Virus record (IMG/VR): IMGVR_UViG_3300013117_000152
Coordinates: 1-38,184 of that record
DNA from: a virus
Length of the DNA stretch: 38,184 bases
Reading direction: 5' to 3' (one strand)
The position numbers and the translations under genes are program-made. Shown here one piece after another: positions 3,422 to 25,009 of the stretch. The number at the start of each line of letters is the position of its first letter. The first letter of the stretch is position 1. The notes under the pieces were generated by a model that was not told the origin of the DNA, searched no databases, and saw nothing but the letters and a program-made list of their open reading frames with translations.

Positions 3422-3576
3422 TATTCTATCCTGTGATCGTTTAATTCCCTTGTTAAATTTCTTTCTACTTTTTCAAGCTCTCTTTCTGTTTCTTCTCTGT
3501 ATTCTCCAAAATCTGTCCTATTCCATTCTTGAATTAGGTGATTGCGTTGGTCGATTAAGTCGGTTAGGCTGCACAT
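3421..3576 (-). CDS. Small charged coiled-coil-like protein, 51 aa
   Basis: Start ATG 3576 has a near-perfect ribosome site (AAGGAGGT) and directly abuts the stop of the DUF2958 gene. The product is highly charged (Glu/Arg) and predicted to be one long helix, possibly a coiled coil. Middle gene of the leftward operon. Function unknown. Confidence 0.65.
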   Translation of the reverse strand: MCSLTDLIDQRNHLIQEWNRTDFGEYREETERELEKVERNLTRELNDHRIE

Positions 3577-6442: not shown

Positions 6443-7837
6443 ATGGAGTTAACAAAACAAATACACGATTGGCTTGATAATTTACCAGAAGATAGCAAGA
6501 GAGAATATCTCGATAGATTAGAACGCAATCCATTTCTGCTGTATATTCCCCATTCTGTTCAGCGTAAGTTTCACCAATCCGATGCTAGGATTAGAGCTTT
6601 CTTCGGAGGTAATAGGTCGGGCAAGACTAGAGCTTTGTTACAGGAGGTTCTTTGGTATGCTACGGGGTTACATCCTTACAAAACAATAAAAGTTCCCGTA
6701 GATATATGGGTGGTTAGTTTGGATTTTCCTTCTTCCCGTGATGTTGTTCAACCCATGATTAGAAAGTTATTAGGTTCTGGCTATCTTAAAAGTTGGAGAG
6801 AGACAGATAGGATAGTTGAATTAACTAATGGTTCTACTATAGGTTTTAAATCCGTTGATTCTGGGTGGGAGAAGTTTCAGGGCACTGCAAAGCACGTAAT
6901 TGCATTTGATGAAGAACCCAAATGGAATGTCTATCAGGAATGCATAATGAGGATAGTTTCCACCAAGGGAGATATTATTATTGCTATGACACCCCTGCAC
7001 GGAATGACCTGGGTTTATGATGAAGTATATGAACCCTGGCTTGATGGAAGCAATGAGGATATTGAATGTTTTGTAGCTAAGACGAAAGATAATCCATATA
7101 TTGATAGTCAAGAAGTAGGCAGGATTGAAAAATCCTTTTACGATGAGGAAAAAACAGCCAGGTTAGAGGGTCGTTTTGTTGAGTTTGCTGGTTTAGTTTA
7201 TAAGGAATTTGATAAGAATATCCATTTGGTTAAAAGATTTACCATACCGCATCATTGGGTAAAGATACGGGGACTTGATCCTGGTTTGAATAATCCCACT
7301 GCTTGTATATGGTGGGCTATATCTCCAGAAGACGAACATTTTATTTATGATGAATACTACGAGATGGATAAGACTATCAAAGATTTTGCTCTAGATATAA
7401 AAGCCAAGACAGGTTTACAGAATATTTCCTACACGGTTATCGATCCTTCATCAGCCAATAGAAATCCCGCTCATCCAGAACTTAAATCCGTAAAGGAAGA
7501 ATACGCTAAGAATGGAATTTGGACACAGCCAGGCAATAAAGATGTGCTTTATGGTATAAACGCTGTTAAACAACTTTTACATCTAAACCCAAAGACGGGC
7601 AGGGCAAAATTATTCATTTTTGATGATTTGGAATTTATCAAGAAAGAGATTGTTCGTTATCGTTGGGATACATTCAGGCATCATTCCGAAGAACAAAATT
7701 TGAAAGAGAAACCCAAGAAAGTCTTGGACCACGCTATGGATGCTATGAGATATACCGCAGCTAGCGACCCTAGATATGTTTCTATGACTGAGAGTGAAGT
7801 TATAAGTAAGATGAGTTTCAAACCAACCAGGAGTTAG
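6443..7837 (+). CDS. terL: Terminase large subunit (ATPase and nuclease), 464 aa
   Basis: Two-domain packaging motor. The ATPase domain has Walker A GGNRSGKT (residues 55-62) and Walker B VIAFDEE (152-158). The C-terminal RNase H-fold nuclease shows IRGLDPGLNNPT, a VIDPSS strand and the final DHAMDAMRY acidic motif. Length and motif order match phage large terminases. It translocates DNA into the prohead through the portal and cuts it. No ribosome site is evident before ATG 6443, while three GTTAAC words (6419, 6429, 6448) surround the start. Confidence 0.95.
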   Translation: MELTKQIHDWLDNLPEDSKREYLDRLERNPFLLYIPHSVQRKFHQSDARIRAFFGGNRSGKTRALLQEVLWYATGLHPYKTIKVPVDIWVVSLDFPSSRDVVQPMIRKLLGSGYLKSWRETDRIVELTNGSTIGFKSVDSGWEKFQGTAKHVIAFDEEPKWNVYQECIMRIVSTKGDIIIAMTPLHGMTWVYDEVYEPWLDGSNEDIECFVAKTKDNPYIDSQEVGRIEKSFYDEEKTARLEGRFVEFAGLVYKEFDKNIHLVKRFTIPHHWVKIRGLDPGLNNPTACIWWAISPEDEHFIYDEYYEMDKTIKDFALDIKAKTGLQNISYTVIDPSSANRNPAHPELKSVKEEYAKNGIWTQPGNKDVLYGINAVKQLLHLNPKTGRAKLFIFDDLEFIKKEIVRYRWDTFRHHSEEQNLKEKPKKVLDHAMDAMRYTAASDPRYVSMTESEVISKMSFKPTRS

Positions 7838-8010: not shown

Positions 8011-8246
8011 GTGAAATACACGCCAGGGCACAAAAAGTTTTTACTATCGCTGGTAACTATCAGACACGTATAGATTATGAGGCGGGGGATGACCCCATTT
8101 ATGTTGGGATAGCCTTACGAGGAATAGCCACAACTGACGAAAAATGGTTTATTCAAAAACTTACTTGGAGTAGTAGTAAACCCACCCTTATACAATCGGC
8201 TATAGATGTTGATTGGGATAATCGCACTACTCATACTTATAGTTAA
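8007..8246 (+). CDS. Conserved-type phage protein, 79 aa
   Basis: A beta-rich protein with YVGIALRGIATTDEKW, a long central strand region and a C-terminal DWDNRTTHTYS motif, a pattern I associate with small phage structural or appendage proteins of unknown role. It begins within ATGA overlapping the previous gene and is followed by the transglycosylase. Function not assigned. Confidence 0.7.
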   Translation: MSEIHARAQKVFTIAGNYQTRIDYEAGDDPIYVGIALRGIATTDEKWFIQKLTWSSSKPTLIQSAIDVDWDNRTTHTYS

Positions 8247-8259
8247 TCAAGGAGTTAAT

Positions 8260-8682
8260 ATGGAGAATTTTGACCACGAATTTATGAGTGCATTAATTGA
8301 TATTGAAAGTTCTAATAATCCTAAAGCATTTAATCCCGAAACAAATGCTAGGGGTCTTACGCAGATTACACCTATCGCTTGGCAGGATTTAACTGTGCGT
8401 TATCCAGAAAGATATTCAAAATTAAAATTTGAGAGAGATATGTTTAAACCAGATGTGGCATTGCAGGCAGGTAAGGATTATTTGGAAATTTTAAAAGGTT
8501 ATTTAAAGCATTATGGTATTCCCATCACGATGGATAATTTAATTGCTGGGTATAATTGGGGAATTGGCAATCTAAAGGAATTTGGATTAGAAAATGCACC
8601 AGCAGAAACAAAAAAATATATTGGAAAAATGAGGCATCTATTACAGCCACAATCGGAACAACTAGATGCCGATTATAAATAG
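8260..8682 (+). CDS. Lytic transglycosylase (SLT, lysozyme-like), 140 aa
   Basis: SLT-domain motifs are all present: IESSNNPKAFN with catalytic Glu, GLTQI, and YNWGIGNL, then a closing ETKKYIGKM helix. The enzyme cleaves the peptidoglycan glycan strand. Placed between terminase and portal, it is probably virion-associated and helps DNA entry, rather than the main endolysin. I chose ATG 8260, with AAGGAG at 8249-8254, over an upstream ATG at 8206 that lies inside the previous gene. Confidence 0.88.
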   Translation: MENFDHEFMSALIDIESSNNPKAFNPETNARGLTQITPIAWQDLTVRYPERYSKLKFERDMFKPDVALQAGKDYLEILKGYLKHYGIPITMDNLIAGYNWGIGNLKEFGLENAPAETKKYIGKMRHLLQPQSEQLDADYK

Positions 8683-8693
8683 GGAAGGTTACA

Positions 8694-10631
8694 ATGGCAA
8701 GAAAGAAGAAAGATACTCCCGTATTGAAAAGCGACCCCGTAGCTGATTGGGTAGTAGCTCGATACAATGAATCAAAAAATTATTATAATCCATTATATTT
8801 GAAATTTGAAGATTGGGATGACCAATATTTTTCTATACCTTCATCAAGAAGATATGATTGGCAATCCAATGTTTTTGTTCCAGCTACCTATAAGGCAATA
8901 AAAACATTATTGGCTAGAATTGTTGCTGCTTTATTTTCAACTAATCCACCCTTCGATGCTGTGGGTGTTGAGGAAAAGGATAAGCCTGGTGAAATTCCTA
9001 AAAAGAGATTGGTTGCGTATCAATTTGAAAAGACCAGGGTGTTTGAAAAATTTATAACTTTTGTTCTACAGGCATTGATAAGAGGAACTTCTATAGGTAA
9101 GGTTTATTGGAAAAAGGAGAATACTTTTGTGCCTCGTATTGTTAATTACGAAGAAGAGGTCTTAGTAAGTGTTGATGAGAAGGGTAAGCCTTTAAAGGGT
9201 AAAAAGAAACGCAAGATTATTGAGAAGAAACAAAAAAAAGTATATGACGAAAAGATACTTTACGAAGGACCAGAGTTTGATGTTTTAGATATTTATGGTG
9301 GGGTATTTCCTGATCCTTATGTTACCAAACTAAATGATGGATATTTAATTCATCGTTTGGTAAGAACAGAAGATTATCTTAGAAAAAATGCTAATAAATA
9401 TGAGAATATCTCTCTTGCACTCAATACGGAATACCCAGGAGAGGAACATTGGCAACACTCAAGGTTAGAGAATATTGGATTATCAGAACCCCAATATACT
9501 ATAAAGACAGCAGATAATCAGGCAGTAGAACAAAAAGGATTAAACAAATATGAATTATTAGAGTGCCATTGTAAATATGACATAAACAATGATGGATTTT
9601 TGGAAGATAGTATTATCACAGTTTGCAATAGAACAGTTGTAATTAAAAAAGCTCTCAATCCTTATCCAGAGGGTTGTTTTGTGAAGATTGGTTTTATGCC
9701 CATATTAAATGAATTTTTCTGGCAAGGTGTTTGTGAGTTGGTAGAGCCATTACAGGAAGAATTAAATGATAAAAGAAATCAACGTCTTGATAATGTTAAT
9801 TTGGTATTACAAAAAATATTGACCTATGTAGAGGGGGCGGTTGATACTAGAATTTTAAAGAACTTCGTATTTGCTCCTGGTGCGAGATTACCAGTTAAAG
9901 ATATTAATGCTCTTAAATGGGAATCCCCCGATGATGTAACCGCATCGAGCTACAACGAAGAACAAATTTTAGCAGGCGATATACAAGAAACATCTGGAGC
10001 TGTTAATGTGTTGATGCCGAGTGCCAAATCCTCCGATATACACAGAACTGCATCTGGATTATTTATGTTAAAGGGAGAGGCAGAGACCTCGATAAAGCTT
10101 ATTGTTCAATTAATGGAAACCACAGGTTTGGCAGAAATAGCCAAGAAATATGACATATTAAATGATAGTTTTATGACCAGACCCTTAACCGTGAGAATAC
10201 TCGGAAAGCAAGGATATGAATATCCGATGATTTCTCCTGAAGATGTCAGATATTATAATTGTGATTTTATATTCAAGGGTGCATCTGCGTATGTAAATAG
10301 AGAAATCCGTTTAGCACAATTAGCAAAATTGATGGATGTGTTTTCTAAGATGCCTGGGCTAGCTCAAAGACTAGACCCCGATAAATTGGTTAAGATGGTG
10401 GCTAATACCCTAGGTTTTGATGAGAATGAATTAATGCTAAAACAGATTAATCCATTATTGCAACAGGCAGGATTAAATCCACAATTAAACAATCAGGGAT
10501 TAGGTGGTCAACCTGCTAATGTGGGTTATACGCCTGAAGGAAATGATGCTTTGCAGAATATGGTGAATCAAGGATTACCGTTAGAAAATATAGAAGGAGT
10601 AATGGAAGGACTGCGAGGACAGACACAATGA
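8694..10631 (+). CDS. Portal protein, 645 aa
   Basis: Size, position between terminase and scaffold/capsid genes, and sequence (DWVVARYNESKNYY ... DWDDQYFSI ... WQSNVFVPATYKAIKTLLARI) fit the large portals of podovirus-like phages with N4-gp56 capsids. The protein forms the dodecameric DNA channel at one capsid vertex. A lysine-rich loop (GKKKRKIIEKKQKK) near residue 165-178 is probably exposed. The C-terminus is Asn/Gln/Gly-rich and likely disordered. Its stop overlaps the next ATG by 4 bases. Confidence 0.88.
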   Translation: MARKKKDTPVLKSDPVADWVVARYNESKNYYNPLYLKFEDWDDQYFSIPSSRRYDWQSNVFVPATYKAIKTLLARIVAALFSTNPPFDAVGVEEKDKPGEIPKKRLVAYQFEKTRVFEKFITFVLQALIRGTSIGKVYWKKENTFVPRIVNYEEEVLVSVDEKGKPLKGKKKRKIIEKKQKKVYDEKILYEGPEFDVLDIYGGVFPDPYVTKLNDGYLIHRLVRTEDYLRKNANKYENISLALNTEYPGEEHWQHSRLENIGLSEPQYTIKTADNQAVEQKGLNKYELLECHCKYDINNDGFLEDSIITVCNRTVVIKKALNPYPEGCFVKIGFMPILNEFFWQGVCELVEPLQEELNDKRNQRLDNVNLVLQKILTYVEGAVDTRILKNFVFAPGARLPVKDINALKWESPDDVTASSYNEEQILAGDIQETSGAVNVLMPSAKSSDIHRTASGLFMLKGEAETSIKLIVQLMETTGLAEIAKKYDILNDSFMTRPLTVRILGKQGYEYPMISPEDVRYYNCDFIFKGASAYVNREIRLAQLAKLMDVFSKMPGLAQRLDPDKLVKMVANTLGFDENELMLKQINPLLQQAGLNPQLNNQGLGGQPANVGYTPEGNDALQNMVNQGLPLENIEGVMEGLRGQTQ

Positions 10632-11874: not shown

Positions 11875-12927
11875 ATGGCTGATATTCTTAGTAACACTAC
11901 CAACCTTAGTAATTTAGTTCCTACTCTGTATAGCAAGAGATTGCTGGAAAGATTAGAACCGAATTGTAGGGCTTATCAATTAGCGGAAAAACGAACCATT
12001 CCTGCTAATTCAGGTAAAACTATACTTTGGAATAGATATGTGCAGTTGGATGAGGGTATGTCATTGACTGAGGGAACAGTTCCTGGACCTTCAGCTTTGT
12101 CAACCGTCACCGTATCTGCAACTCTAGTCCAATATGGCAACCTAGTTAAGATAACCGATTTGGTGGAAGAGGCTGCTATTTCTAACGTGGTCAAAGACGC
12201 AGTTGATGTCTTAGGTGATAATGCTGCAAAGACCATCGATAAATACATTCTCAACCAAATTGGTTGGTATGGTTCTGCTATAGGAGCTTTATCAGCTTGT
12301 TCTGCGACATTTACAAGTTACCAGTTTGGAACTCTCTATAGTAAAACATCGGGTAGTTTGGATGGTGAATTTTGGGGTGACCCTTCAACATTCGTTAATG
12401 CATCAGATATGGTCAGTTTACCGATTTCGGTATCTGCTATCAGGAAAACTGTTACTCATTTAAGGGAATTAAATGTTTCCCCCCTTGATGATGGTTTCTA
12501 TCATTCGATGATTCACCCTACAGCTATCGATGCACTTAGAGGGCATACGGACTGGATAACATGGAATCAATATACTCGACCAGAGAAAATGGAAAGAGGT
12601 CTTATGGGTGAAGTTGAAGGAGTAAAATTCTATGATGATCCCAATATGTCAACTTCCAATTTCTCAGGTATGCAGGTATCAACTTGTATCGGTTCTTCAT
12701 TTGGAACAGTATATGGCACTATAATCTTCGGAAGAGGTGCTTACGCTGTTACCGAATTAGAAGGTGCTGGCACAGGTGATAATGCAACAAAGGTTTATGT
12801 TGTTCCAAGGTCCAGACCTGATAAAGCTGACCCACTACAGCAGTTTAGTTATGTGGGTTATAAGGCGACATTAGCAGCAAAAATTCTTAACCCAAGTTGT
12901 GGTGTTGTTTTAATCACAAATATATAG
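11875..12927 (+). CDS. Major capsid protein, N4-gp56 family, 350 aa
   Basis: The N-terminal half has the family hallmark: ELVPTLYSKRLLERL-like start, GKTILWNRY, LTEGTVPGPSALSTVTVSA, QYGNLVKITDLVE and DNAAKTIDKYI. The C-terminal part with GRGAYAVTEL and PLQQFSYVGYKA closes the fold. It forms the icosahedral shell (HK97 fold). Usual family length is about 300-400 aa. It follows the scaffold by 15 bases and is followed by a strong hairpin at 12945-12972. Confidence 0.92.
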   Translation: MADILSNTTNLSNLVPTLYSKRLLERLEPNCRAYQLAEKRTIPANSGKTILWNRYVQLDEGMSLTEGTVPGPSALSTVTVSATLVQYGNLVKITDLVEEAAISNVVKDAVDVLGDNAAKTIDKYILNQIGWYGSAIGALSACSATFTSYQFGTLYSKTSGSLDGEFWGDPSTFVNASDMVSLPISVSAIRKTVTHLRELNVSPLDDGFYHSMIHPTAIDALRGHTDWITWNQYTRPEKMERGLMGEVEGVKFYDDPNMSTSNFSGMQVSTCIGSSFGTVYGTIIFGRGAYAVTELEGAGTGDNATKVYVVPRSRPDKADPLQQFSYVGYKATLAAKILNPSCGVVLITNI

Positions 12928-12944
12928 AGGTTAATTAAGATAAA

Positions 12945-12972
12945 GGGGCTATTACTCCTCAACGATAGCCCC
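12945..12972 (+). terminator. Strong hairpin after major capsid gene (no U-tract)
   Basis: GGGGCTAT (12945-12952) and ATAGCCCC (12965-12972) form a perfect 8-bp stem with a 12-base loop, 17 bases after the capsid stop. No T-run follows, so it may be a partial terminator, an mRNA 3' stabiliser or a processing site that sets capsid mRNA above the downstream sugar genes. Confidence 0.55.
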
Positions 12973-12984
12973 CTGCTCAAAAAT

Positions 12985-13602
12985 ATGAAGGAAAGAAGAA
13001 TATTAGGTATAGCATCCCATCCCGACGATTTAGAATTTGGTTGTTTTGGGACTTTTAAGAGATACCAGCAACAAGGTTATAAATTATATTATCTTATCCT
13101 TACTAATGGTGGTGATTCTGGAAATGGCGACATAAGAAAAGAAGAACAAAGCGAGGCAGCAGATTTATTAAAGGCAGAAGTTAAATTCCAAAATTTGCCT
13201 TCTGCATATTTGAATAATGATTCTGGCAGGGAAACCATTAAGGCAATAGAAAATTCAATAAATTTAGTGAAGCCACAAGTAATATTTACTCATTCTGATA
13301 ACGACAGACATCAAGATCATAGATTGGTTAATAAAGCAACGACATCGGCTTGTAGATTTTTTCAAGGTCAATTATATTTTTATGAAGGACATAGTTCTTT
13401 GAAATATTTTAAACCTAATCTTGTATATAGAATTGATGCTTTCTTTGAAGATAAACTAAGAACAATGAATCTGTTTATAAGCCAAGCGACAAAGTTCTAT
13501 ATGAATCCAAAGGTAATTCGAGCCATAGCAACATTTCGTGCTGCTCAATTTGGTTTTTTGGGTAAGGCGGAAGCCTTTGAAGTAGGAGGAATAGTTAGAT
13601 GA
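12985..13602 (+). CDS. PIG-L family sugar N-deacetylase, 205 aa
   Basis: The zinc-binding SHPDD motif (residues 11-15) and the second ligand cluster DNDRHQDH (His109, His112) define a PIG-L/LmbE metalloamidase, which removes N-acyl groups, typically acetyl from GlcNAc-type sugars. Length is normal for the family. No ribosome site precedes ATG 12985; the capsid hairpin lies just before it. First gene of the sugar cassette, overlapping the next by 4 bases. The substrate is probably a nucleotide sugar or sugar lipid made by the neighbouring enzymes. Confidence 0.9.
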   Translation: MKERRILGIASHPDDLEFGCFGTFKRYQQQGYKLYYLILTNGGDSGNGDIRKEEQSEAADLLKAEVKFQNLPSAYLNNDSGRETIKAIENSINLVKPQVIFTHSDNDRHQDHRLVNKATTSACRFFQGQLYFYEGHSSLKYFKPNLVYRIDAFFEDKLRTMNLFISQATKFYMNPKVIRAIATFRAAQFGFLGKAEAFEVGGIVR

Positions 13603-14315
13603 AGCATTTGGTTGTCGGATTTGGAGATGTTGGTAGGGGGCTTTATGAAATATTGCAAGAAAATAAAAAAGAGGTTGTAACTATTGATAAAGATAACAAC
13701 TTAGAGGGGAAATTTGATGTTCTGCATATTTGTTTTCCTTATTCAGCTCAATTTATAGATTATATTCACGATTACATAGCAAAATATAATCCATCTTTAG
13801 TTATTATTCATTCTACTGTAGCACCTGGCACGACAGAAAACATTAGGTTTATTAAAACAGTTCATTCTCCCGTAAGGGGAAGATACCCCCGAATGGCAGG
13901 AGATATAAAATCTTATATTAAATATTTCGGAGGGAAACATTCCGAAGAGGCTTCAAATATTTTTCAAGAAATGGGCTTGAGGACAAAGTGTTTTAAATCT
14001 GCTAAAGTTACTGAATTAGGAAAATTATTGTCTAATATTCGCTGGGGATTGAATATTGCTTTCGCACAGGAACAAAAAAGAATGTGTGAATATTATGGCA
14101 TAAGCTATGAAGAAGTTGTAAATGAATTTGAACATTCACGTAATGAAGGATTAAAAAAGATTAACCGTCAGAATGTTGTTATGCCAATATTATTTCCTGG
14201 ATATATTGGTGGGCATTGTGTAATGCCTAACGTAAATATCCTTATGCAGGAATATCCCTCAATGTTTTTAAGAGTGATAGTTGATAGCAACGAAAGATAT
14301 GGACAAAAAATATAA
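13599..14315 (+). CDS. UDP-sugar dehydrogenase-like protein lacking C-terminal domain, 238 aa
   Basis: The N-terminus is a Rossmann nucleotide-binding fold (VVGFGDVG). Later segments follow UDP-glucose/ManNAc dehydrogenases: [11 protein letters not shown], a central helix with ELGKLLSN, and GGHC with Cys207 in the place of the catalytic thiol. The usual ~130-aa C-terminal UDP-binding domain is absent and the normal PxDP after the Cys is MPN. It may be a reduced oxidoreductase, act with a partner, or be inactive. Beside a 2-epimerase, oxidation of UDP-ManNAc is the obvious but unproven reading. Confidence 0.7.
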
Positions 14316-14712
14316 ATCCTACGAACCTGTAAATATTTATCCTACCGCAGAAATTGGAGAAGGCGCTCATATTGGTATGTTTGCCGAGATAGGCGACTGT
14401 GTAAAAGTTGGTAAATATTGCAAGATTGGCGCAGGAGCATTTATTCCCAAAGGTGTAACGATTGAAGATGAGGTTTTTATTGGTCCTAATGTTGTTTTTT
14501 GCAACGACAAGCATCCAAGGGCAATAGGTGGTTGGGTAGTAACTCCCATATTGGTTGAAAAGGGGGCGTCTATTGGGGCTAATGCGACTATTCTTCCAGG
14601 TGTGAGAATTGGAAGAAACGCAAGAATAGGTGCTGGTTCAGTAGTAACCAAAAGTATTCCACAAGATGAATCTTGGGCGGGAAATCCTGCAATAAAAATA
14701 AATAAAATATGA
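14299..14712 (+). CDS. Hexapeptide-repeat acyltransferase (WbpD/WlbB-like), 137 aa
   Basis: Repeated [IV]G-x-x-x-x turns ([42 protein letters not shown]) build a left-handed beta helix. [15 protein letters not shown] and the terminal AGNPAIKI are typical of the O-antigen N-acetyltransferases that acylate amino-sugar nucleotides with acetyl-CoA; the His in NDKHP is the likely base region. Trimeric in the family. ATG 14299 is preferred over a TTG at 14281. It overlaps the genes on both sides. Confidence 0.88.
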
Positions 14713-15626
14713 GATATTTGACTATATGTGGCACTCGCCCAGAAATAATTAAACTTTGTGATTGGGAAGATGAGATTATTTTTACGGGACAGCATTTTAG
14801 CTATGATATGGGGGAGAAATTTTTATTAAACAAGAAATCAACCAGGGTTCACTTTTTACCTACAGATATAGACCATTCAAATATTGGTGTTCTTACCCAA
14901 CAGCTTGAAGAGAAATTAGTTTTGTTAGGTAGTGATATAATTATAGTTCACGGGGATACCCGTTCAACATTAGCAGGTGCCAGGGCAGCGCATAAATTAA
15001 AGATGTGTCTTGCCCATATTGAATCAGGAGTTAGGTGTTTTCGTGATACTGTTGAAGAGACATATAGAAAAGAAATAGACCAACTAGCGAACTACAATTT
15101 TTGTCCTGTGCCGAATGCAGTTGAACATCTTAAAAAGGAAGGCATAACCGAAGGCGTATATTTCACGGGAGATATTCTCTACGATAGATTTTTAGAAAAC
15201 AGGGAATGTTGGGATTTTGTATTTGTTACTATTCATAGGCAAGAAAATATAGAAAATAAGGATAAATTGAAACAGCTCATTGACAGTTTGAAAGATTATG
15301 GTTATATAATTTTTCCGCTTCATCCCCATACAAGGGAGTGCCTTGAGAAATTTAAAATAGACCTGCCACGCAATGTGGTTGAGATGCCCCCCCTGGGTTA
15401 CGAAGAAACCCTCCGTTACATCAAAGACGCAAAATTGATATTAACGGATTCTGGTGGTATCCAAAGAGAAGCCTACTGGTCGGGCACTCCCTGTAAAGTA
15501 GCACGTGAATCTACTGAGTGGGGTTATTATACGGGTGCTTTTGGCAATGGAAAAGCAGGAGATAAAATAAAAGAAATTTTAGATAACAGGAAACCATATA
15601 GAAAGGTGGAAGGTGGTTATGCCTAA
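14709..15626 (+). CDS. UDP-N-acetylglucosamine 2-epimerase (WecB-like), 305 aa
   Basis: Family motifs in order: [44 protein letters not shown], and [17 protein letters not shown]. WecB-type enzymes interconvert UDP-GlcNAc and UDP-ManNAc. At 305 aa it is shorter than the usual ~370, mainly by trimmed loops between the two GT-B-like lobes, while the active-site motifs are kept. It overlaps the preceding gene by 4 bases and the next by 8. Confidence 0.9.
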
Positions 15627-17196
15627 GATTTCGTTGGTAATGCCGATTTATCGCACAGAACGATTTTTAGAAAAAGCTATTGAAAGTATATTAGACCAAG
15701 ATTATAAAGATTGGGAATTAATTTGCGTATCAGATGGTTATTCACGTAAAGCCTCATTGATAATTAAAACCTTTAACGATCCACGTATTAAGCATATTAA
15801 TATTTCTCACGGAGGGGCGTGTAAGGCAAGAAACGAAGGGGCAAAAGTAGCTGCGGGTAAATATATATCTTTTTTTTCTTCTGATTTTAGAGCAATTCCT
15901 GGAATGTTGAGAAAATGGGTTGATACTTTTCAGGAACATCCAGAAGCAGATTTTATTTATGGCGGATATATGTTTCCTAATAGGCAGATATATCCTTCAG
16001 AAGAGTTTGATCCAAGACAATTAGAAGTTTATAACTATATAGATGGTGGGTTTCCATTAAAAAAAGAAATTTGGGAAAAATACCCTTGGGATGAAAAGAT
16101 AAAATCTCTCAACGATTGGGATTTTTGGTTGAGAATTGTTAAAGTGGGATATAGGGGATATTATCTTGGTAATTATTATTCATATATTGCAGAACCGCCC
16201 AGAACAGGCGGATTATCACACGACAGTTCACAGAATTGGATAGAAAGGGTAAAGCAAATAAGAGAGAATAATAATATTCCACAGAGGTCGATTGTAGTTG
16301 CTTCATTGGGAGCTCCGTTCTTTGGGAAGAACTTGGCAAAGTTTTTAGATGCAGATTTTATGCCCATGCCTTCGTTTAAACCTCACACATACAAGATGGT
16401 TTACTTATTGGGTTTTTATCCTAATTCAGCAGATAAACACGCAAGGGTATTTCTTAACTGCCAGAAAGACTGCAAGAAGGTTATCCATTGGTTAGGTTCT
16501 GATATTGCAGGACTAAAGAAATTATCTTGGGAAAGTTTGAATGCTTTAGGAAACACATTAAACCAAACTATGTCTATTATGTTTGCCGAATCAAAAGTTC
16601 AGCAGAGAGAATTGATTAAGATGGGAATAAAAACAGAAGTCCTGCCTCTATTAAGAGATATTAGTTCTTTTACAAGAAAACCAATGCCCAAGGATTTTGC
16701 TGTAGCTGTTTATTTACCTGGAGTAAATACGGATAACTACCATCCCATTCTTATTGAAAATATTACTAAGAATATGCCTGATGTTCAATTTTATCTTTAC
16801 GGAGATAGGGGAGTAAAGGAACAACAGGATTTTAAGAATGTTCATATTGTGGGTTGGAAAGATATAAATGAAATAATCGACAAAACCTCAATACTCCTGC
16901 GATATACGGTTCACGATGGATTGCCTACAGCACCTATGGAATTTTTGATGTCGGGAAGATATGTAGTCAGTAATGTTGATATGCCTTACATAGAAAAGAT
17001 AGATAGCAAAAAAGACGAAGAAGGCGTAAGGAAAATTATTATTGAGAAGATAAGACAGATAAAGAAGAAGATAAGAAAAAAACAATATCCTACAGATGAG
17101 GCAGTTCAGTATTATAAAGACTATCTCAATCCTAATAAAATCAAAAAAAGACTTCATTCAATAATCAATGGTGTTTATAGAAATAAATCCATTTGA
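15619..17196 (+). CDS. Two-domain glycosyltransferase (GT2 plus GT-B-like), 525 aa
   Basis: Residues ~3-215 form a family-2 glycosyltransferase (SLVMPIYRTERFLEKAIESI, later NDWDFWLRIV). Residues ~225-480 resemble a GT-B enzyme of the GT4 type, with a KVIHWLGSDI strand, an LPGVNTDNYHPILI segment, VQFYLYGDRG and HDGLPTAPMEFLMSGR, the usual nucleotide-sugar-binding end. The GT2 part has SSDF where a DxD metal motif is expected, so it may be weak or altered. The tail is Lys-rich. ATG 15619 has AAGGTGG just upstream. Confidence 0.82.
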   Translation: MPKISLVMPIYRTERFLEKAIESILDQDYKDWELICVSDGYSRKASLIIKTFNDPRIKHINISHGGACKARNEGAKVAAGKYISFFSSDFRAIPGMLRKWVDTFQEHPEADFIYGGYMFPNRQIYPSEEFDPRQLEVYNYIDGGFPLKKEIWEKYPWDEKIKSLNDWDFWLRIVKVGYRGYYLGNYYSYIAEPPRTGGLSHDSSQNWIERVKQIRENNNIPQRSIVVASLGAPFFGKNLAKFLDADFMPMPSFKPHTYKMVYLLGFYPNSADKHARVFLNCQKDCKKVIHWLGSDIAGLKKLSWESLNALGNTLNQTMSIMFAESKVQQRELIKMGIKTEVLPLLRDISSFTRKPMPKDFAVAVYLPGVNTDNYHPILIENITKNMPDVQFYLYGDRGVKEQQDFKNVHIVGWKDINEIIDKTSILLRYTVHDGLPTAPMEFLMSGRYVVSNVDMPYIEKIDSKKDEEGVRKIIIEKIRQIKKKIRKKQYPTDEAVQYYKDYLNPNKIKKRLHSIINGVYRNKSI

Positions 17197-17368
17197 TATA
17201 CATTTTGGCGATCCCCAATATGAAACTAATTGGAAATCTATTATTGAATTAGATTTTCCCTAGCAAATAAAGATATTCTTTCACGAAGGATTAAGGCGAT
17301 GGGATATTATGGGCATACAGGAAAGATATAATTATTATGGCATCCCAGAACATCTTATTAAATTGTGA
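17168..17368 (+). pseudogene. 66-codon ORF interrupted by one in-frame TAG
   Basis: From ATG 17168 (inside the previous gene) an open frame runs 31 codons to TAG at 17261-17263, then continues open for 34 codons to TGA at 17366-17368. That TGA overlaps the GTG start of the radical SAM gene by 4 bases (GTGA). Both halves have normal composition (GDPQYETNW... and FHEGLRRWDIMG...), which suggests one protein. It could be a recently inactivated gene, readthrough of an amber (the next codon is CAA), or two micropeptides. No family recognised. Confidence 0.45.
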
Positions 17369-18654
17369 AGATTTTATTCGTTTATCCCAATATAACCAGG
17401 CAAACAACTCCGCAAGTGGGGATAGCTTCATTAATTTCCGTTATTTTAAAAAAACACGATGTAAGACTTTTTGATTTAACTATTATAAAATCAGGTGGGG
17501 AAAAATCCGCCTTTTTAGAGAATCTTGAAACATTCCTTCCTGATTTAGTATTGGTTTCCTGCCGAAGCAACGAATGGGGATATGTAAAAAAAATCGTTGA
17601 ATGGTCTTATCCTATACCCGTAATTCTTGGAGGAATACACCCCACTATAAACACAGAAGAAGTTTTAGAACACGCTAAGATGGTAATAAGGGGTGAAAGT
17701 GAAGAAGCTCTTGAGGAATTGCTTGACAGGTTGGAAAGAGGAAGAGATATAGGCAGGATAAGAAATCTTTGGTTTAAAAGAAGGGGTAGGATTGTCAGGA
17801 ATGATGTAAGACCTCTTATACAGAATTTAGACGAGCTTCCTTTTCCTGAATGGAAAGCTTTTCCCAAAGACCATTTTTATAATTCCTACATTAAGTCGTT
17901 ATTTAAAGATATTAGATGCGTAGGGACATTTGAAACGACTAGGGGATGCCCTTATTTATGCTCATATTGTTGTAATGAATATTTACAAAAGATTTACAAG
18001 GGAAAAGGAACATATCACCGTAAAAAATCTCCTCAACGGGTTGTTAGTGAAATTAGGAGCTTTCGTAGCCTGTATCCTGATTGCAACTTTTTATATTTTG
18101 TTGATGATACTTTTATGGTTGAGGGAAATTGGCTCGAAGAGTTTAAGGATATTCACGACAAAACGCCATTTGTTTTTATGACACGACCAGAAATGGTTAC
18201 AAGAGAAAAAATGAGACTGGTTGCCGAGGCGGGTGGTAAGGCAGTTAGCATTGGGGTGGAAAGTGGAAATGAAAAATTCAGAAAAGAAATTCTTAACAGA
18301 AAGATGTCTCAGGAACAGATTATTGAAGCGTTTAAAATCGCAAAAGATTTTGGTCTTATGGTGTATTCATTCAACATGGTGGGTTTGCCCTATGAAACCA
18401 GAGAAGATATACTCGCTACAATAGAATTAAATAAAAAACTTAAACCAGATATAGCACAGTTTACCATATTTTTTCCTTTTAAGGGAACAAAGCTCTTTGA
18501 TATATGCACGAAAGAGGGTTATCTTGCTAGAGAATATCCTGAACTTTTTAACTATTACAATAAGTCCTTTTTAAATCATCCGAATTTTAAAGAAGGGGAA
18601 CTTGAAAAATGGGCAGAAAAAGCCGAAAGAATATTCAAAAAGAAAAAGAAATAA
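17365..18654 (+). CDS. B12-binding-domain radical SAM protein, 429 aa
   Basis: Residues ~1-140 form a cobalamin-binding-type Rossmann domain (ILFVYPNI ... VILGGIHPT). A radical SAM barrel follows with the 4Fe-4S motif C195-PYL-C199-SY-C202 and downstream FVDDTF and SIGVESGN segments. Such enzymes perform radical methylations or other modifications, often on sugars, lipids or peptides. In this cassette a sugar modification is likely but not shown. It starts with GTG 17365 overlapping the amber-interrupted ORF, and its end overlaps the next gene by 46 bases. Confidence 0.88.
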   Translation: MKILFVYPNITRQTTPQVGIASLISVILKKHDVRLFDLTIIKSGGEKSAFLENLETFLPDLVLVSCRSNEWGYVKKIVEWSYPIPVILGGIHPTINTEEVLEHAKMVIRGESEEALEELLDRLERGRDIGRIRNLWFKRRGRIVRNDVRPLIQNLDELPFPEWKAFPKDHFYNSYIKSLFKDIRCVGTFETTRGCPYLCSYCCNEYLQKIYKGKGTYHRKKSPQRVVSEIRSFRSLYPDCNFLYFVDDTFMVEGNWLEEFKDIHDKTPFVFMTRPEMVTREKMRLVAEAGGKAVSIGVESGNEKFRKEILNRKMSQEQIIEAFKIAKDFGLMVYSFNMVGLPYETREDILATIELNKKLKPDIAQFTIFFPFKGTKLFDICTKEGYLAREYPELFNYYNKSFLNHPNFKEGELEKWAEKAERIFKKKKK

Positions 18655-19322
18655 AAATCAGTTATGTTTTACCTACGTATAACAGAGTGGAATATTTGGG
18701 TGAATGTATTGCAACTTTATTAGAGCAGGATTTTAATTCCGAAGAATTTGAAATAATCATAGTCGATGATGGTTCTACTGACACTACAGAAGAATTGATG
18801 TGTTGGTTGTGTAGTCAACATAAAAATCTACACTATTACAAAAAGAAACACGCAGGAGTGGAAAGTGCTAGAAATTTTGGCAATAAGCTAGCTAGAGCAG
18901 AGATTATAGGTGTTTGTGATTCTGATGATTTATACCACCAAGACAGAACAAAAATAACATACAATTATTTTAAACAATATCCCAATGTAGATATTTTGAC
19001 TGGTTCATACATAGAGATAAATCATAGGGGATTACCTCTAAAAGTATATAAGGCAGAACCAATAAAGAAAAGAATGTTTTTTAAGGGTAGAATGACTTTT
19101 TTCTGCCACGATAATTGTGCTTATAAGAAAGAAAAGATTTTAAAGACGCCATACCGTAAAAATGGCAATCAGACAGATGATTGGAAGTTAATTCATGATT
19201 GGCTTAAAGCTAATTATAAGTTTGGCTACACAAAAAAAGAACTTTGTAAAGTCAGAACCCTGCGTAATGGCATAATGGGTGCAAGACGGGAAAGGATGGG
19301 AATAAGGCTTTCTTATGTCTAA
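18609..19322 (+). CDS. Family-2 glycosyltransferase, 237 aa
   Basis: A GT-A fold enzyme with SYVLPTYNRVEYL, IIIVDDGSTD and an intact metal-binding motif CDSDDLYH, followed by an FFCHDNCAYKK acceptor region and DDWKLIHDWL. It transfers a sugar from a nucleotide donor to a glycan, lipid or protein. AAGGGG about 11 bases before ATG 18609 supports a start inside the radical SAM gene. No membrane segment, so it acts in the cytoplasm. Overlaps the next gene by 8 bases. Confidence 0.88.
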   Translation: MGRKSRKNIQKEKEIKISYVLPTYNRVEYLGECIATLLEQDFNSEEFEIIIVDDGSTDTTEELMCWLCSQHKNLHYYKKKHAGVESARNFGNKLARAEIIGVCDSDDLYHQDRTKITYNYFKQYPNVDILTGSYIEINHRGLPLKVYKAEPIKKRMFFKGRMTFFCHDNCAYKKEKILKTPYRKNGNQTDDWKLIHDWLKANYKFGYTKKELCKVRTLRNGIMGARRERMGIRLSYV

Positions 19323-20409
19323 TCAATTTAAGATTCTTTTTATGCCTACAGCTAATGCGGGGGTAACCTGGCAGAGAATGTTTTTATTCTTTCAGCAATT
19401 TAAGAAAGATAAAACTCTTTCGCCTGCAATGGATAGCTTTGATCCTAACAGAAGTATGCCTTACGAGTGGCAATTTGATAAATTCAGAAGCACAATGCTT
19501 GAACTTCAGATAGAAAAGCTTGTGGGTATGGCTGATGTGGTAGTTATTGGGTATGTAATTTGCGATTATGGCATTGCTCTTATTAAAGGATTGAAAATGC
19601 TCTTTCCTAAAAAACCTATTCTTATGGAGATAGATGACTACTGTTTTCAATTAAATGATTATTCTCCAGCTTTTAATGTTTATAGAGCAGGTAAAGAAGC
19701 CTGTGATGGACTGGAAGAACAATTAAAAATTTCAGATGGTGTGATAGTTTCAACTCCATATTTGAAAGATTTATACGCTGACCACAACAAAAATATTAAA
19801 GTTATGAGGAATGGAGTTGATTTTAATATTTGGAATTTCCCCATAAAAGAAAAAAAGGGGAAGAAAATAAAAATAGGTTGGGCTGGTGCATATACACATT
19901 CTGAAGATGTAAGATATATTGAAAAAATTGTTTACAGGATACTTGACAAATATAAAAATGTGGAATTTTACTTTATGGGAGGAGCACCTGATTTTTTTAT
20001 TAAAAAACATCCCCAAATAAAATGTCATAATGCCTGGTCTAACCCCTACAATTACCCAGAGGCTTTATACAAAAAGAATTTTGACATAGGATTAGCCCCC
20101 TTGCTTGACAATAATTTTAATAGGGCAAAGAGCAATTTAAGATGGCTTGAATATTCGGCTTTAAAAATACCTACAATAGCAAGTAATGTGGAGGATTTTA
20201 AGAGGACTATTGAAGAAGATGATACTGGTTATTTATGTTCAGAACCAGAAGAATGGTTTTATAAATTATGTATGCTTATTGAAAACGGTGAAAAAAGGAA
20301 ACAAATAGGTGAAAATGCCTATAGAGAGGTAAAGAAAAATTTTAATATGGAAATTTTAGCAAAAGAATATAGCGATTATCTCAAGGGAGTTTACGATGAC
20401 TTTAAGTGA
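19315..20409 (+). CDS. GT-B glycosyltransferase (GT4-like), 364 aa
   Basis: The C-terminal lobe shows the GT4-type signatures IGWAGAYTHSEDV, VEFYFMGG, IGLAPLLDNNFNRAKSNLRWLEYSA and ASNVEDF, with the usual acidic donor-binding region replaced by the N-R-x-K-S-N segment common in surface-glycan transferases. Last gene of the cassette. Its end overlaps the tail-adaptor gene by 14 bases, so the sugar genes and the virion genes are in one translational chain. Confidence 0.88.
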   Translation: MSNQFKILFMPTANAGVTWQRMFLFFQQFKKDKTLSPAMDSFDPNRSMPYEWQFDKFRSTMLELQIEKLVGMADVVVIGYVICDYGIALIKGLKMLFPKKPILMEIDDYCFQLNDYSPAFNVYRAGKEACDGLEEQLKISDGVIVSTPYLKDLYADHNKNIKVMRNGVDFNIWNFPIKEKKGKKIKIGWAGAYTHSEDVRYIEKIVYRILDKYKNVEFYFMGGAPDFFIKKHPQIKCHNAWSNPYNYPEALYKKNFDIGLAPLLDNNFNRAKSNLRWLEYSALKIPTIASNVEDFKRTIEEDDTGYLCSEPEEWFYKLCMLIENGEKRKQIGENAYREVKKNFNMEILAKEYSDYLKGVYDDFK

Positions 20410-21085
20410 AATTAGAACAAGAATTAGACTGATGATGCCAGAGGCAGATACCACGGTTATAAATAATCAGGATTTAGATATTTTGATTAACGATGCTGTA
20501 ATGGATATAACTTCAAAGACGGAGTGTATCCAAAATTATGCAGACCAAACTGTAACTGCTGATACTCAGGAATATTCTAAGCCAACAGACGCTATTAGCA
20601 TTACTGCTGTTTATTATGGAGGCTCTGGCAACTGGGAGAAACTACCCAGGGTTACTATGGATTTTCTTTCTAATGAGGTAGATGAAGATTGGTTTGATGA
20701 TACTGGAACAATCTATGCTTATTTTATCAGAAGGGATAAAATAGGTCTTTATCAAATACCCACATCTAGCGAAGCGGGAACTGATTATTTAAGGGTGTAT
20801 TATGTGGAACAACCTGATACTTTATCTGACAATGGAGATGTTCCATTTAATAGTTTGAATCATTTAAAATCTTATCACGAATTGATTATTCTCTATGTGA
20901 TTTATCATCTTAAGCAAATAGTTGGTAAATGGCAACAATCGGATTATATAGAGAAAAATTACCTCGCCAAGACAGTTAATATGAAGGTTGAACTTAACAG
21001 GATGGAAGATTTTCAACAAGTTATCCGACCCTACCATAAGGGAGCCGGAGGAAGTTCACTCAAGCAGAATCCCTTAGACCAATAA
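20396..21085 (+). CDS. Head-to-tail adaptor (tail tubular protein A-like), 229 aa
   Basis: An N-terminal helix bundle (SEIRTRIRLMMPEADTT, LINDAVMDITSKT) followed by beta segments and a helical RLYHLKQIVGKW-type end matches phage neck or connector proteins that bind beneath the portal. Position before the nozzle gene is as in T7-like and N4-gp56-type podoviruses. AAGGGAG lies upstream of ATG 20396, inside the last glycosyltransferase gene. Confidence 0.78.
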   Translation: MTLSEIRTRIRLMMPEADTTVINNQDLDILINDAVMDITSKTECIQNYADQTVTADTQEYSKPTDAISITAVYYGGSGNWEKLPRVTMDFLSNEVDEDWFDDTGTIYAYFIRRDKIGLYQIPTSSEAGTDYLRVYYVEQPDTLSDNGDVPFNSLNHLKSYHELIILYVIYHLKQIVGKWQQSDYIEKNYLAKTVNMKVELNRMEDFQQVIRPYHKGAGGSSLKQNPLDQ

Positions 21086-21109: not shown

Positions 21110-24070
21110 ATGTATGATACTTTTCAAGAAGAAGATGTTGCTTTAGCTATAGATGTATTTAAAGGACTAGATAAAAAAACACCTTCAGAGAATCTACCTA
21201 TAGGCGTATCTGATATATGCCAGAATTGGCGATTTGATGAAAAGGGTAATTTATCTCGTAGACCTGTCTATGCAAAATATAATGCAACGTCGTTAGGTGC
21301 TAATCCTATTAAATATTTAGATAGGATTTACATAGGAACAAATAAATATCTTTTAGCTGTCTATGATACCAATTTAAAAGTGGGGAATGATGCAGCGGGA
21401 ACATTCTCAAATCTAAAAACAGATTTAACTGCTGACCTCGATTATACAGGAGTAACTTTTAAAGATTTTCATTATCTGGCAAATGGAACTGACAATATTA
21501 TCAGGACAGATGGTGTTGATATAAAAGATGCGGGTTGTGAAGCCCCCGATACAGCTCCTTCCGCAGCCGAAGGTGTAGCAGGCACTATGGCAGCAGGCAC
21601 ATATAAATACAAAGTTACCTATGAATTTGATGGTTACCAAGAAGGAAATAGCCAATCAGGGGATTGTTCTGTAACAATAGGTGCAAGCAAAACCGTAGAT
21701 TTAACTGATATTCCTGTTGCTAATTTTGATTCTTATACGAAATTATTACTTCCACTTGAAGGGGCTGATGCAGCTACTACCACTACTGATGTTGGAGAAT
21801 TTCACGCTGCGACATTCAATGGCACAGCACAGATAGATACAGCACAGAAGAAATTTGGTTCTTCTTCGCTATTACTTGATGGAAATAGTGATTATTTGAC
21901 TTTTCCTGACCATGCTGATTGGAGTTTTGGAACAGGTGATTTCACCATAGATTTTTGGGCAAGATTTAATGATTTGACCAATAGACAGGCATTTGTTTGT
22001 CAAGACGATACTACAAATTATTGGCTTTTAGAGAAATATACCAGTGCCAATGGTAACAAATTAAGAATGATTTTTATTAATGAAAGCGGGGTTACTAAGG
22101 GCGATTATGTAATGACAAATAATTGGTCTGTTTCTGCGGATACCTGGTATCATCTTGCTTTTGTAAGAAATGGCTCAAATGCTTATATACTTATTGATGG
22201 CACGCCCCAAACCCTTACTGAAACTACTGCCTTTGGTTCTAATGATGTAGGAAATATAGCCGCTTCTTTATATGTCGGTTACTCTCCTGGATTAACGACA
22301 TATCTTAATGGATGGTTAGACGAAGTGAGGATTTCTAGAGATACAGCTCGTTGGACTGCCAATTTTACTGCGCCTACCACGCCCCATGCAGATGCTTTTG
22401 ATATAACAGGAAGAAAGATTTATAGAACAGAAGCGGATGGCACTACCTATTACTATTTAACTGAGTTGGCAGACAACACCACAACTGTATATAACGACGA
22501 TGACGTAGATGCCAATTTAGATACTACTATAACCGTTCCTACTGATAATGGGGCTCCTCCTGTTACAAAATATCTCAGGTTACATAAAGATAGGGTATTT
22601 TCGGCAGGGAATAGCACCAATAAATCAAGGGTATATTATTCCAAAATTTCAGGTATTATTGCTTATCCCGAAATATACCCAGCCAATAATTACATTCCTG
22701 TTTCACCAGATGATGGCGACGAAATAACTGGAATAGCTGTTGACCCTACAGGATATTTGTGTGTATTCAAAAAGAATACCATAAGGAAAATATTTACTGA
22801 TGGAGACCCTGATATATGGTCAGTATCCGAACCATTCAGTAAATATGGTTGTGTATCTCCTTATTCAATTAAAGAAACACCTGCTGGAATATTATATCTT
22901 GCTATTGATGGTTGGCGACTTTTTGACGGACAAAATTCAAGACTATTATCAAATAGCGATAGAGTAAACAAAATTACCACAGATGAAATAATGCTTTCTA
23001 GGCATGATAAATGCAAGGGACATTATCACGACCACATCTGTTATCTTGCATATACAGATAGAGCTTCCAATGTTACTTATAACAATCGGGTTCTTTTGTA
23101 TGACACCCTGACAGACAATTTTTCAATCGAACATAAAAAGATAGATTCATTTTGCACCCTTTCTGGTTCTGATGATTGGGGGGAGATTTATTATGGAGAT
23201 AGCCAGAATGGATTTGTTTATAAAGAAGAAACTACTATAAGTGGTGAAGTATTCAGTAAATTATCCGAATTTAGACCAAGTGGAACACTCTCTAATTTGT
23301 TTGTTTTTGGAACTGAAGAAAGCCCTACTTTAGAATTGGGTGGTCGTTATACGCTAGACCGTATGACAGGAAGTTCTTTAGATGATTGGACTGGTTCTGC
23401 TTTGGATGATTTTCCTTCTGCCTATGCTCCTTCTGGAACTTATATATCACCAGTATTACAACTTAATGCGAGTAATCTTTACTATATGTATTGGAATGAA
23501 ACATTGGGTGATTATGGAGATGCAACTGTAGCTCTAAGGACATCTACTACTTCGGCAGGTTTATCTGGAACTTGGTCATCTGAATATAGTAATGCTTTAG
23601 GTTCAGATATTACAGGTGAAACAGCCCAAGATTGGCTTCAATTTAGAATTACCCTATCTTCATTTGATCCAAATAAAGATAGCACTCCGCAACTTTATGT
23701 AAAAAATGATTACTTATTCAAGTTAACTTATGGAGTAACGGGCACGGAAGTAGAAACAGCGATAGATTGCGATTGGAGAAGTGGCTACCTGCAATTTACT
23801 CCACAGGCAACGCCTGTTAGGTTGCGTAGATTTGAAATAGACCACGATGGTTCGGATGGATTATTAAGCTGTATTTGGGAATTGGATAATGAAAGTGTTT
23901 CAGGAATATTTACTGTGAATTTAGCTAATGACACCAAAACTTATAAATCACCCTTTCCTACAACTGCTTTTGGTAAAAGGGGAAGATTTAGACTTAAATA
24001 TAATGATATAGAAGATTTAACAATTAAAGCTGTGAATTTGCTATTAAGCCCACAGCCAGAAAGATATTAA
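21110..24070 (+). CDS. Tail nozzle (tail tubular protein B-like) with inserted LamG lectin domain, 986 aa
   Basis: The N- and C-terminal parts are beta-rich repeats like the beta-propeller tail nozzle of short-tailed phages (FKGLDKKTPSENLP start, GEIYYGDSQNGFVYKE blades). Residues ~205-427 form a LamG/concanavalin-like jelly roll: YTKLLLPLEG, GSSSLLLDGNSDYLTF, FTIDFWARF, WYHLAFVRNGSNAYILIDG, GWLDEVRISR. It splits a module that normally reads ...LTDIP-V... to ...TGRKIYRT. The nozzle conducts DNA, while the inserted domain probably binds host-surface or virion glycans. Confidence 0.82.
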   Translation: MYDTFQEEDVALAIDVFKGLDKKTPSENLPIGVSDICQNWRFDEKGNLSRRPVYAKYNATSLGANPIKYLDRIYIGTNKYLLAVYDTNLKVGNDAAGTFSNLKTDLTADLDYTGVTFKDFHYLANGTDNIIRTDGVDIKDAGCEAPDTAPSAAEGVAGTMAAGTYKYKVTYEFDGYQEGNSQSGDCSVTIGASKTVDLTDIPVANFDSYTKLLLPLEGADAATTTTDVGEFHAATFNGTAQIDTAQKKFGSSSLLLDGNSDYLTFPDHADWSFGTGDFTIDFWARFNDLTNRQAFVCQDDTTNYWLLEKYTSANGNKLRMIFINESGVTKGDYVMTNNWSVSADTWYHLAFVRNGSNAYILIDGTPQTLTETTAFGSNDVGNIAASLYVGYSPGLTTYLNGWLDEVRISRDTARWTANFTAPTTPHADAFDITGRKIYRTEADGTTYYYLTELADNTTTVYNDDDVDANLDTTITVPTDNGAPPVTKYLRLHKDRVFSAGNSTNKSRVYYSKISGIIAYPEIYPANNYIPVSPDDGDEITGIAVDPTGYLCVFKKNTIRKIFTDGDPDIWSVSEPFSKYGCVSPYSIKETPAGILYLAIDGWRLFDGQNSRLLSNSDRVNKITTDEIMLSRHDKCKGHYHDHICYLAYTDRASNVTYNNRVLLYDTLTDNFSIEHKKIDSFCTLSGSDDWGEIYYGDSQNGFVYKEETTISGEVFSKLSEFRPSGTLSNLFVFGTEESPTLELGGRYTLDRMTGSSLDDWTGSALDDFPSAYAPSGTYISPVLQLNASNLYYMYWNETLGDYGDATVALRTSTTSAGLSGTWSSEYSNALGSDITGETAQDWLQFRITLSSFDPNKDSTPQLYVKNDYLFKLTYGVTGTEVETAIDCDWRSGYLQFTPQATPVRLRRFEIDHDGSDGLLSCIWELDNESVSGIFTVNLANDTKTYKSPFPTTAFGKRGRFRLKYNDIEDLTIKAVNLLLSPQPERY

Positions 24071-24799: not shown

Positions 24800-25009
24800 A
24801 TGCAAGAAGATAAATGTTTAAAATGTGGAAGATGTTGTTATATGGGATTCTATGATAGAAGGGGATTTAAAACAAAAACAACTATAAAATGTCCATATTT
24901 GACAGAGGATAATTTATGTAACGTTTATAATAATCGCCCTAAATGGTGTATAACAGCAGAAGAAATGAAAAAGAAGAGTTTGTTACTCGATGGATGCGGG
25001 TATAAATAA
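24800..25009 (+). CDS. YkgJ-type Cys-cluster (metal-chelating) protein, 69 aa
   Basis: CLKCGRCCYMG at the start and CPYL...CNVYNNRPKWC, with a last Cys near the end, follow the YkgJ/UPF0153 cysteine-cluster pattern (proposed Fe or Zn ligand). It is much shorter than cellular members. Its place inside the tail module is unusual: it may mature a metal-containing virion part or be a moron. Coupled to the genes on both sides. Confidence 0.75.
   Translation: MQEDKCLKCGRCCYMGFYDRRGFKTKTTIKCPYLTEDNLCNVYNNRPKWCITAEEMKKKSLLLDGCGYK

Follow-up and report, generated by a model that had tools for sequence, protein, structure and literature searches.

The IMG/VR virus record IMGVR_UViG_3300013117_000152, analysed here over its whole length of 38,184 bases (the window), comes from a podovirus-like phage with recognisable TerL, portal and major capsid protein (MCP) genes. 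Between the MCP gene and the gene for an SU10-type adaptor it carries a cassette of genes for sugar biosynthesis and glycan transfer. This cassette is best read as a late-operon module of a podovirus-like lineage that probably glycosylates a virion protein in the cytoplasm. Its glycosyltransferase genes belong to the virion module, as seen from their conserved slot and their co-inheritance with the MCP.

A preliminary reading of the letters of this DNA (the sequence-only reading) had proposed eight co-directional genes at this position, three of them encoding glycosyltransferase proteins, with seven linked by short overlaps and the last running into the adaptor gene by 14 bases. Searches of Pfam and PHROGs recovered all eight, one of the three glycosyltransferases proving to be a GT-A/GT-B domain fusion, and the measured intergenic gaps along the cassette (-4, -35, -4, -14, +168, -46 and -8, with a last -14 into the adaptor) agree with the proposed linkage. 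The catalytic motifs examined in the cassette genes are intact.

Conserved Position and Co-inheritance With the Capsid

Single-protein scans of viral contigs returned near-identical contigs and one relative only, and alignments were needed to reach further. By aligning the third core glycosyltransferase (called GT1) with a 42% identical relative (L006), and then with seven sequences, we retrieved 80 loci; sampling of loci thus began from GT1 and, in a further scan, from cassette-bearing MCPs. Profile searches of open reading frames (ORFs) revealed a common order in 52 loci, the window among them: MCP, variable genes, fusion glycosyltransferase, the second core glycosyltransferase (GT2), GT1 and adaptor, with some loci missing one element or reaching a contig end. 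The same gene order, which the sequence-only reading had suggested looking for in related phages, is therefore found in about 50 diverged, uncultivated podovirus-like contigs. Homologues of GT1 were present in 51 cassette loci, of the fusion in 47 and of GT2 in 45. Chance is no realistic alternative for this arrangement, because the identical order is seen again in dozens of diverged contigs.

Pairwise distances between MCPs correlated with those of GT1 (r=0.84, 42 loci), the fusion (r=0.87, 39 loci) and GT2 (r=0.89, 36 loci), as compared to yardsticks of 0.93 for MCP and portal and 0.91 for MCP and adaptor. None of 2000 permutations reached any of these correlations. Glycosyltransferase distances track capsid distances, and the core has therefore been inherited with the virion genes. 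The association is old, since median MCP identity across the loci is 27%. Of 40 loci, 27 also have GT1 running into the adaptor gene, and in 11 the overlap is exactly 4 bases; start codons were picked mechanically, so that the long overlaps are upper limits.

These patterns bear on the idea that the genes are a passing cargo island without a virion role, retained by chance at a permissive site. Biosynthetic genes do differ between relatives, and one locus (L123) has dehydrogenase and aminotransferase genes upstream of its terminase gene rather than between MCP and adaptor. Nevertheless, the three glycosyltransferases stay constant at the MCP divergence given above and follow the capsid distances, and we consider cargo of this kind very unlikely.

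A further scan used six MCP queries instead of glycosyltransferases and yielded 23 loci. Cassette glycosyltransferases are present in 16 of those with enough downstream sequence (about 14 once near duplicates are merged, several of them known from the first scan), and glycosyltransferase genes lie downstream in all informative loci at an MCP identity of at least 33%. Because all six queries were taken from phages that have the cassette, the scan covers one clade. Among the conditions that the sequence-only reading named as refuting it was a related phage that shares the structural genes but has no cassette and shows the scar of a recent insertion. We looked for such a phage, and the cassette was missing only from distant capsid relatives. 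Four loci at 26-30% MCP identity (L130, L132, L133 and L134) have no cassette glycosyltransferases downstream, and in Bacillus phage Pony (MCP 25% identical) just three small hypothetical genes separate the MCP from the tail genes. Judged from these sequences, absence in distant capsid relatives looks like ancient gain or loss, not recent insertion. The adaptor protein itself had no match among annotated phages.

Gene Content of the Cassette

Table 1. Coordinates and best evidence for the cassette genes and their structural neighbours in the window.
Feature	Position	Strand	Evidence
TerL	6443-7837		–
Portal	8694-10631		–
MCP, possible glycan acceptor	11875..12927	+	phrog_1357 major head protein E=2.8e-48; Phage_capsid_4
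PIG-L/LmbE-type N-deacetylase	12985..13602	+	PF02585 2e-24; HPDD, HQDH metal motifs
Short two-domain nucleotide-sugar 6-dehydrogenase, WbpA/WecC-like	13599..14315	+	PF00984 8e-8
Hexapeptide-repeat sugar N-acyltransferase, WbpD/WlbB-like	14281..14712	+	PF00132 1e-24
Non-hydrolysing UDP-sugar 2-epimerase, WecB/WbpI family	14709..15626	+	PF02350 5e-53
Core glycosyltransferase 1, GT2 (GT-A) + GT-B-like fusion, 527 aa	15613..17196	+	PF00535 1e-21 (N-domain), weak PF13692
Amber-interrupted reading frame	17168..17368	+	TAG at 17261-17263; gene status unproven
B12-binding radical SAM enzyme, CPYLCSYC cluster motif	17365..18654	+	PF04055 2e-26, PF02310 2e-10
Core glycosyltransferase 2, GT2, DSD motif	18609..19322	+	PF00535 3e-28
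Core glycosyltransferase 3 (GT1), GT-B of GT4 type	19315..20409	+	phrog_7162 1e-42; GT-B/group 1 Pfam 2e-7
SU10-type adaptor, first gene 3' of cassette	20396..21085	+	PF24175 2.5e-18

Genes other than the three core glycosyltransferases vary between loci. When 149 cassette ORFs that had no other label were scanned against Pfam, they included NAD-dependent epimerase/dehydratases (20), methyltransferases (20), DegT aminotransferases (18) and GFO/IDH/MocA oxidoreductases (11), besides extra glycosyltransferases and carbamoyltransferases. In L058, the best solved relative of the MocA oxidoreductase is WbpB (3e-30), and the DegT protein matches WbpE, among others. The five enzyme classes of a WbpA/B/E/D/I route (6-dehydrogenase, 3-oxidase, aminotransferase, N-acetyltransferase and 2-epimerase) are all found in L051, L053 and L058, and seven further loci hold four of the five.

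The window itself holds three of these classes and has no WbpB- or WbpE-like gene. Its dehydrogenase, which had been described as "dehydrogenase-like", can be placed more specifically: the NAD and central domains are present, as are the GxGxxG, ELGKLLSN and GGHC motifs, the last with the catalytic cysteine. It is not full length, however, as the 238-residue protein lacks the third, UDP-binding C-terminal domain; its match to TIGR03026 (5e-16, under that profile's cut-off) stops at profile position 298 of 413, and the best solved relative, the UDP-ManNAcA dehydrogenase 4r16, is weak (8e-5). Eight relatives are equally short (237-263 residues), and seven of them, all but that of L020, keep the cysteine motif. 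The hexapeptide enzyme, whose listed start is TTG with an alternative ATG/GTG at 14299, has the sugar N-acetyltransferases 7s3u, 4mzu and 3mqg as best solved relatives (1.6e-28). The 2-epimerase has the family motifs TRPE, HGDT, HRQEN and DSGG, and its closest solved structure is the UDP-2,3-diacetamido-2,3-dideoxyglucuronic acid 2-epimerase 8sxv (1e-41); it scores under the wecB equivalog cut-off, so its substrate is left open.

Two further genes belong to the variable part. Among the loci compared, the PIG-L protein, with the bacillithiol-type deacetylases 6p2t and 2ixd as best solved relatives, is confined to the window and contigs near-identical to it. The B12 radical SAM gene probably encodes a sugar-modifying enzyme. 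Taken together, the WbpA-like dehydrogenase, WbpD-like N-acyltransferase, WbpI-like 2-epimerase, PIG-L and radical SAM protein point to an N-acylated amino-uronic acid of the ManNAcA/ManNAc3NAcA type as the candidate donor sugar of the window. The suggestion that the phage builds its sugar alone found no support, since two of the likely pathway's enzyme classes are missing from the window. Host enzymes may supply the remaining steps, or PIG-L and the acyltransferase may swap the N-acyl group.

The 168-base gap between the fusion and radical SAM genes holds a 66-codon frame with one TAG. The sequence-only reading had this frame bridge the gap, and it does overlap both flanking genes. Its gene status is unproven: it had no relative in any fetched locus, and we therefore leave it out of the gene count. 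The frame recurs with the same TAG in a second contig (L005, IMGVR 3300009431_000722), which shows 13 mismatches to the window across 17,944 aligned bases, all of them outside the cassette. This contig confirms the assembly; being near-identical, it is not independent and carries little information on conservation.

Promoter- and terminator-like sites fall below shuffle expectation and give no sign that the cassette is a separately transcribed unit. A hairpin between MCP and PIG-L is no stronger than in shuffled sequence (z -0.93). At the same boundary the MCP ends in TAG, and its frame stays open across the 57-base gap into PIG-L (12925-12984 region), so that read-through would give a 575-residue fusion. 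We set this candidate aside as weak, as an open frame match across 57 bases has a one-in-three chance of arising, with no readthrough signal sought.

Elsewhere in the window, a lytic transglycosylase-like gene (8206-8682) sits between terminase and portal. In the LamG-domain gene (21110-24070), a stretch of about 200 bp (22153-22351) gathers all 13 mismatches to L005 over 17.9 kb, which may reflect a binding domain that varies locally or recombines. The structural operon also includes a small cysteine-rich protein (24800-25009; CLKCGRCC and more Cys). Downstream of a fibre-like gene, the protein at 31177-31791 has a nucleotidyltransferase-like GSFAYGN...DFD stretch without a Pfam match, and a tRNA-Cys (38114-38184) lies at the extreme right contig end, reported as extending one base beyond it.

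Core Glycosyltransferases and Their Cellular Relatives

AlphaFold models of the fusion and of GT1 were confident (mean predicted local distance difference test scores of 92.1 and 93.8, respectively). The N-domain of the fusion model has WrtF and SpsA among its GT-A matches, and the GT1 model matches GT4-type GT-B enzymes, namely BshA, PglA, TarM and SdgB, a staphylococcal protein glycosyltransferase. By itself the modelled GT1 fold singles out no acceptor. Three loci (L040, L059 and L066) retain GT1 where the fusion is absent, and GT1 may therefore act on protein itself.

A scan of genome contigs with GT1 gave 21 loci, and in 15 of them the fetched stretch includes a flagellin gene; FlaG, FliD and FliS are also present in 12 of these 15. 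B12 radical SAM genes resembling that of the cassette lie upstream of flagellin-linked GT1 relatives in L094, L102, L105 and L107. The relatives are mostly 25-30% identical to GT1, so they offer a lead on the type of acceptor, not proof. Separately, a short contig binned as Candidatus Altiarchaeota (L093) ends in a GT1 fragment (3574-3918) 60% identical to that of the window, reflecting either misbinning or an archaeal link. Our literature search found no paper on flagellin glycosylation with radical SAM enzymes, or on podovirus glycosyltransferases beside capsid genes.

Given that the closest cellular GT1 relatives adjoin flagellin genes, often together with radical SAM genes like that of the cassette, the enzymes might instead glycosylate a host appendage protein (flagellin or pilin) and so alter receptor use. 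Such a role would sit oddly with the late, capsid-linked position, the window encodes no flagellin-like acceptor and the relationship is weak at the identities above; we regard it as quite improbable.

Missing Transfer Machinery and Host-Directed Roles

The main rival to virion glycosylation is a late alteration of host surface polysaccharide (O-antigen or capsule), which would block superinfection or the re-adsorption of released phage to debris. Wbp-type sugar enzymes serve O-antigen in bacteria, the window's GT2 protein matches GtrB-like PHROGs (2e-17), and integrases occur in six of 23 whole contigs (the window and 22 related ones). Host polysaccharide is also the usual target ascribed to phage glycosyltransferases, those of pelagimyophages having been interpreted as modifying the O-chain (PMC7029224).

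We searched the 23 contigs for the machinery that lipid-linked or membrane-anchored transfer would involve, with control genomes giving positives. None of them encodes GtrA (PF04138), a Wzx-type flippase (PF13440) or a lipid-priming phosphoglycosyltransferase (PF02397, PF00953). Hydropathy profiles of 388 cassette ORFs likewise revealed no polytopic membrane protein, polymerase-like ones included; the single segment flagged in the window falls in GT1, within its confidently modelled soluble GT-B fold. As the contigs may be fragments, these absences are not final. Still, the core has been inherited together with the capsid and is tied to the adaptor gene, and we see no clear reason for purely host-directed genes to keep the capsid-adaptor slot across such divergence. 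We therefore judge modification of host polysaccharide unlikely, while giving it more weight than any other alternative.

Virus-encoded glycosyltransferases are also known to attach a variety of glycans to DNA (Pyle et al., 2024, as cited in PMC12619734), and those described here could in principle act on phage DNA. The same 23 contigs contain no thymidylate-synthase-type hydroxymethylase (PF00303), and the cassette lies in the late structural operon, not among replication genes, making a DNA target extremely unlikely.

A Proposed Virion Glycosylation Module

The sequence-only reading had offered either glycosylation of the virion or a late change of host glycans. Co-inheritance with the capsid, the frequent adaptor overlap, the lack of flippase and lipid-linked machinery and the flagellin-linked relatives favour the first; a glycan on the virion and a particular carrier protein did not gain support. 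In the mechanism that we propose for virion glycosylation, the variable genes would make and edit a donor sugar, and a constant core of three soluble glycosyltransferases (GT-A/GT-B fusion, GT2 and GT1) would be translated along with the adaptor. A capsid or tail protein would then receive the sugar straight from its nucleotide, during assembly in the cytoplasm and without a lipid carrier, GT1 being the likeliest enzyme to contact the protein. We infer the acceptor, the sugar, the order of transfer and the benefit. In one sub-clade (L028, L035, L037 and others), the slot also encodes, just 3' of the MCP, small proteins (clusters c5 and c6) whose N-termini are signal-like and whose repeats are fibre-like, and they are possible virion surface proteins and acceptors.

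Several points weigh against this proposal. Glycan, acceptor and activity are predictions from gene content; the cellular GT1 relatives are distant, and both of those examined closely are large and multi-domain. The pathway of the window is incomplete, both in its two absent classes and in the short dehydrogenase, and a flippase or primer not seen in the contigs could come from the host. Among the contigs with an integrase, lysogenic host conversion may apply to some. Finally, the loci were chosen via GT1 and cassette-bearing MCPs, and prevalence figures hold for this clade.

More broadly, it is conceivable, although we put this forward tentatively, that a widespread podovirus lineage has particle glycosylation fixed in assembly, its three glycosyltransferases inherited like structural genes while sugar genes turn over and give each phage its own coat, and that the core shares ancestry with bacterial flagellin glycosylation. 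Phage virion glycosylation has already been shown in a few mycobacteriophages. If our proposal is true, it would be common and ancient in environmental podovirus-like phages, with the sugar itself specified by the phage, and particle surface chemistry, including receptor binding, stability and recognition by hosts or grazers, could be read from genomes. The cassettes would also be a source of candidate enzymes for the direct attachment of unusual amino-uronic acids to proteins. The prediction extends to every isolate that shows the MCP – glycosyltransferases – adaptor arrangement.

Comparison With Known Systems

An annotated counterpart is Podoviridae sp. ctQWt234 from Manatee Spring (MW202801), whose MCP-adaptor slot is likewise filled with radical SAM, glycosyltransferase and decorating genes (MCP, radical SAM, glycosyltransferase, PhyH, methyltransferase, NodB-like, glycosyltransferase, adaptor). 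It differs in its decorating enzymes, has no fusion glycosyltransferase and its MCP is 24.5% identical. Two other phages were considered and rejected as comparable cassettes: in Aphanizomenon phage Yong-DA (a circular record) the 2-epimerase lies among Wzy/Wzc-type exopolysaccharide genes and ParA/ParB, and in Streptomyces phage Zuko a GT1 relative and a nucleotide-sugar enzyme directly precede the terminase gene, a different slot.

Among cellular systems, the Wbp/Wlb route to UDP-ManNAc3NAcA in Pseudomonas and Bordetella shares WbpA-, WbpD- and WbpI-like enzymes with the window, which has PIG-L and radical SAM genes in place of WbpB and WbpE, and a short dehydrogenase. Flagellin loci of Azonexus, Dechloromonas and relatives (L094, L107, L111 and others) resemble the cassette in placing a GT1 homologue, GT2 domains and genes for B12 and SPASM radical SAM enzymes beside a self-assembling structural protein. 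They are cellular, however, the two glycosyltransferase proteins read there span 1234-1333 residues, and flagellin is taken as acceptor from its position. The GtrA-type flippase of Gtr-type serotype conversion was not found in the 23 contigs, nor its membrane-anchored glycosyltransferases among the 388 ORFs, nor, in the 23 contigs, were the priming enzyme and flippase of Wzx/Wzy lipid-linked polysaccharide assembly or the pyrimidine hydroxymethylase of DNA hypermodification systems.

Chlorovirus PBCV-1 likewise encodes sugar-making enzymes and several glycosyltransferases, including the multi-domain A064R, and its major capsid protein is glycosylated without host endoplasmic reticulum enzymes (PMC7019647). 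As PBCV-1 is a virus of eukaryotic algae whose jelly-roll capsid is unrelated and whose glycans are N-linked, the likeness is one of analogy, not homology. Mycobacteriophages Che8, Corndog and Myrna, for which glycans on capsid and tail-tube proteins have been reported (Freeman et al., 2023, as described in PMC12619734 and PMC12363180), also use phage-encoded glycosyltransferases. The podovirus-like system described here, so far a genomic one, differs from theirs in bringing three glycosyltransferases and sugar-making enzymes together in a single capsid-adaptor slot.

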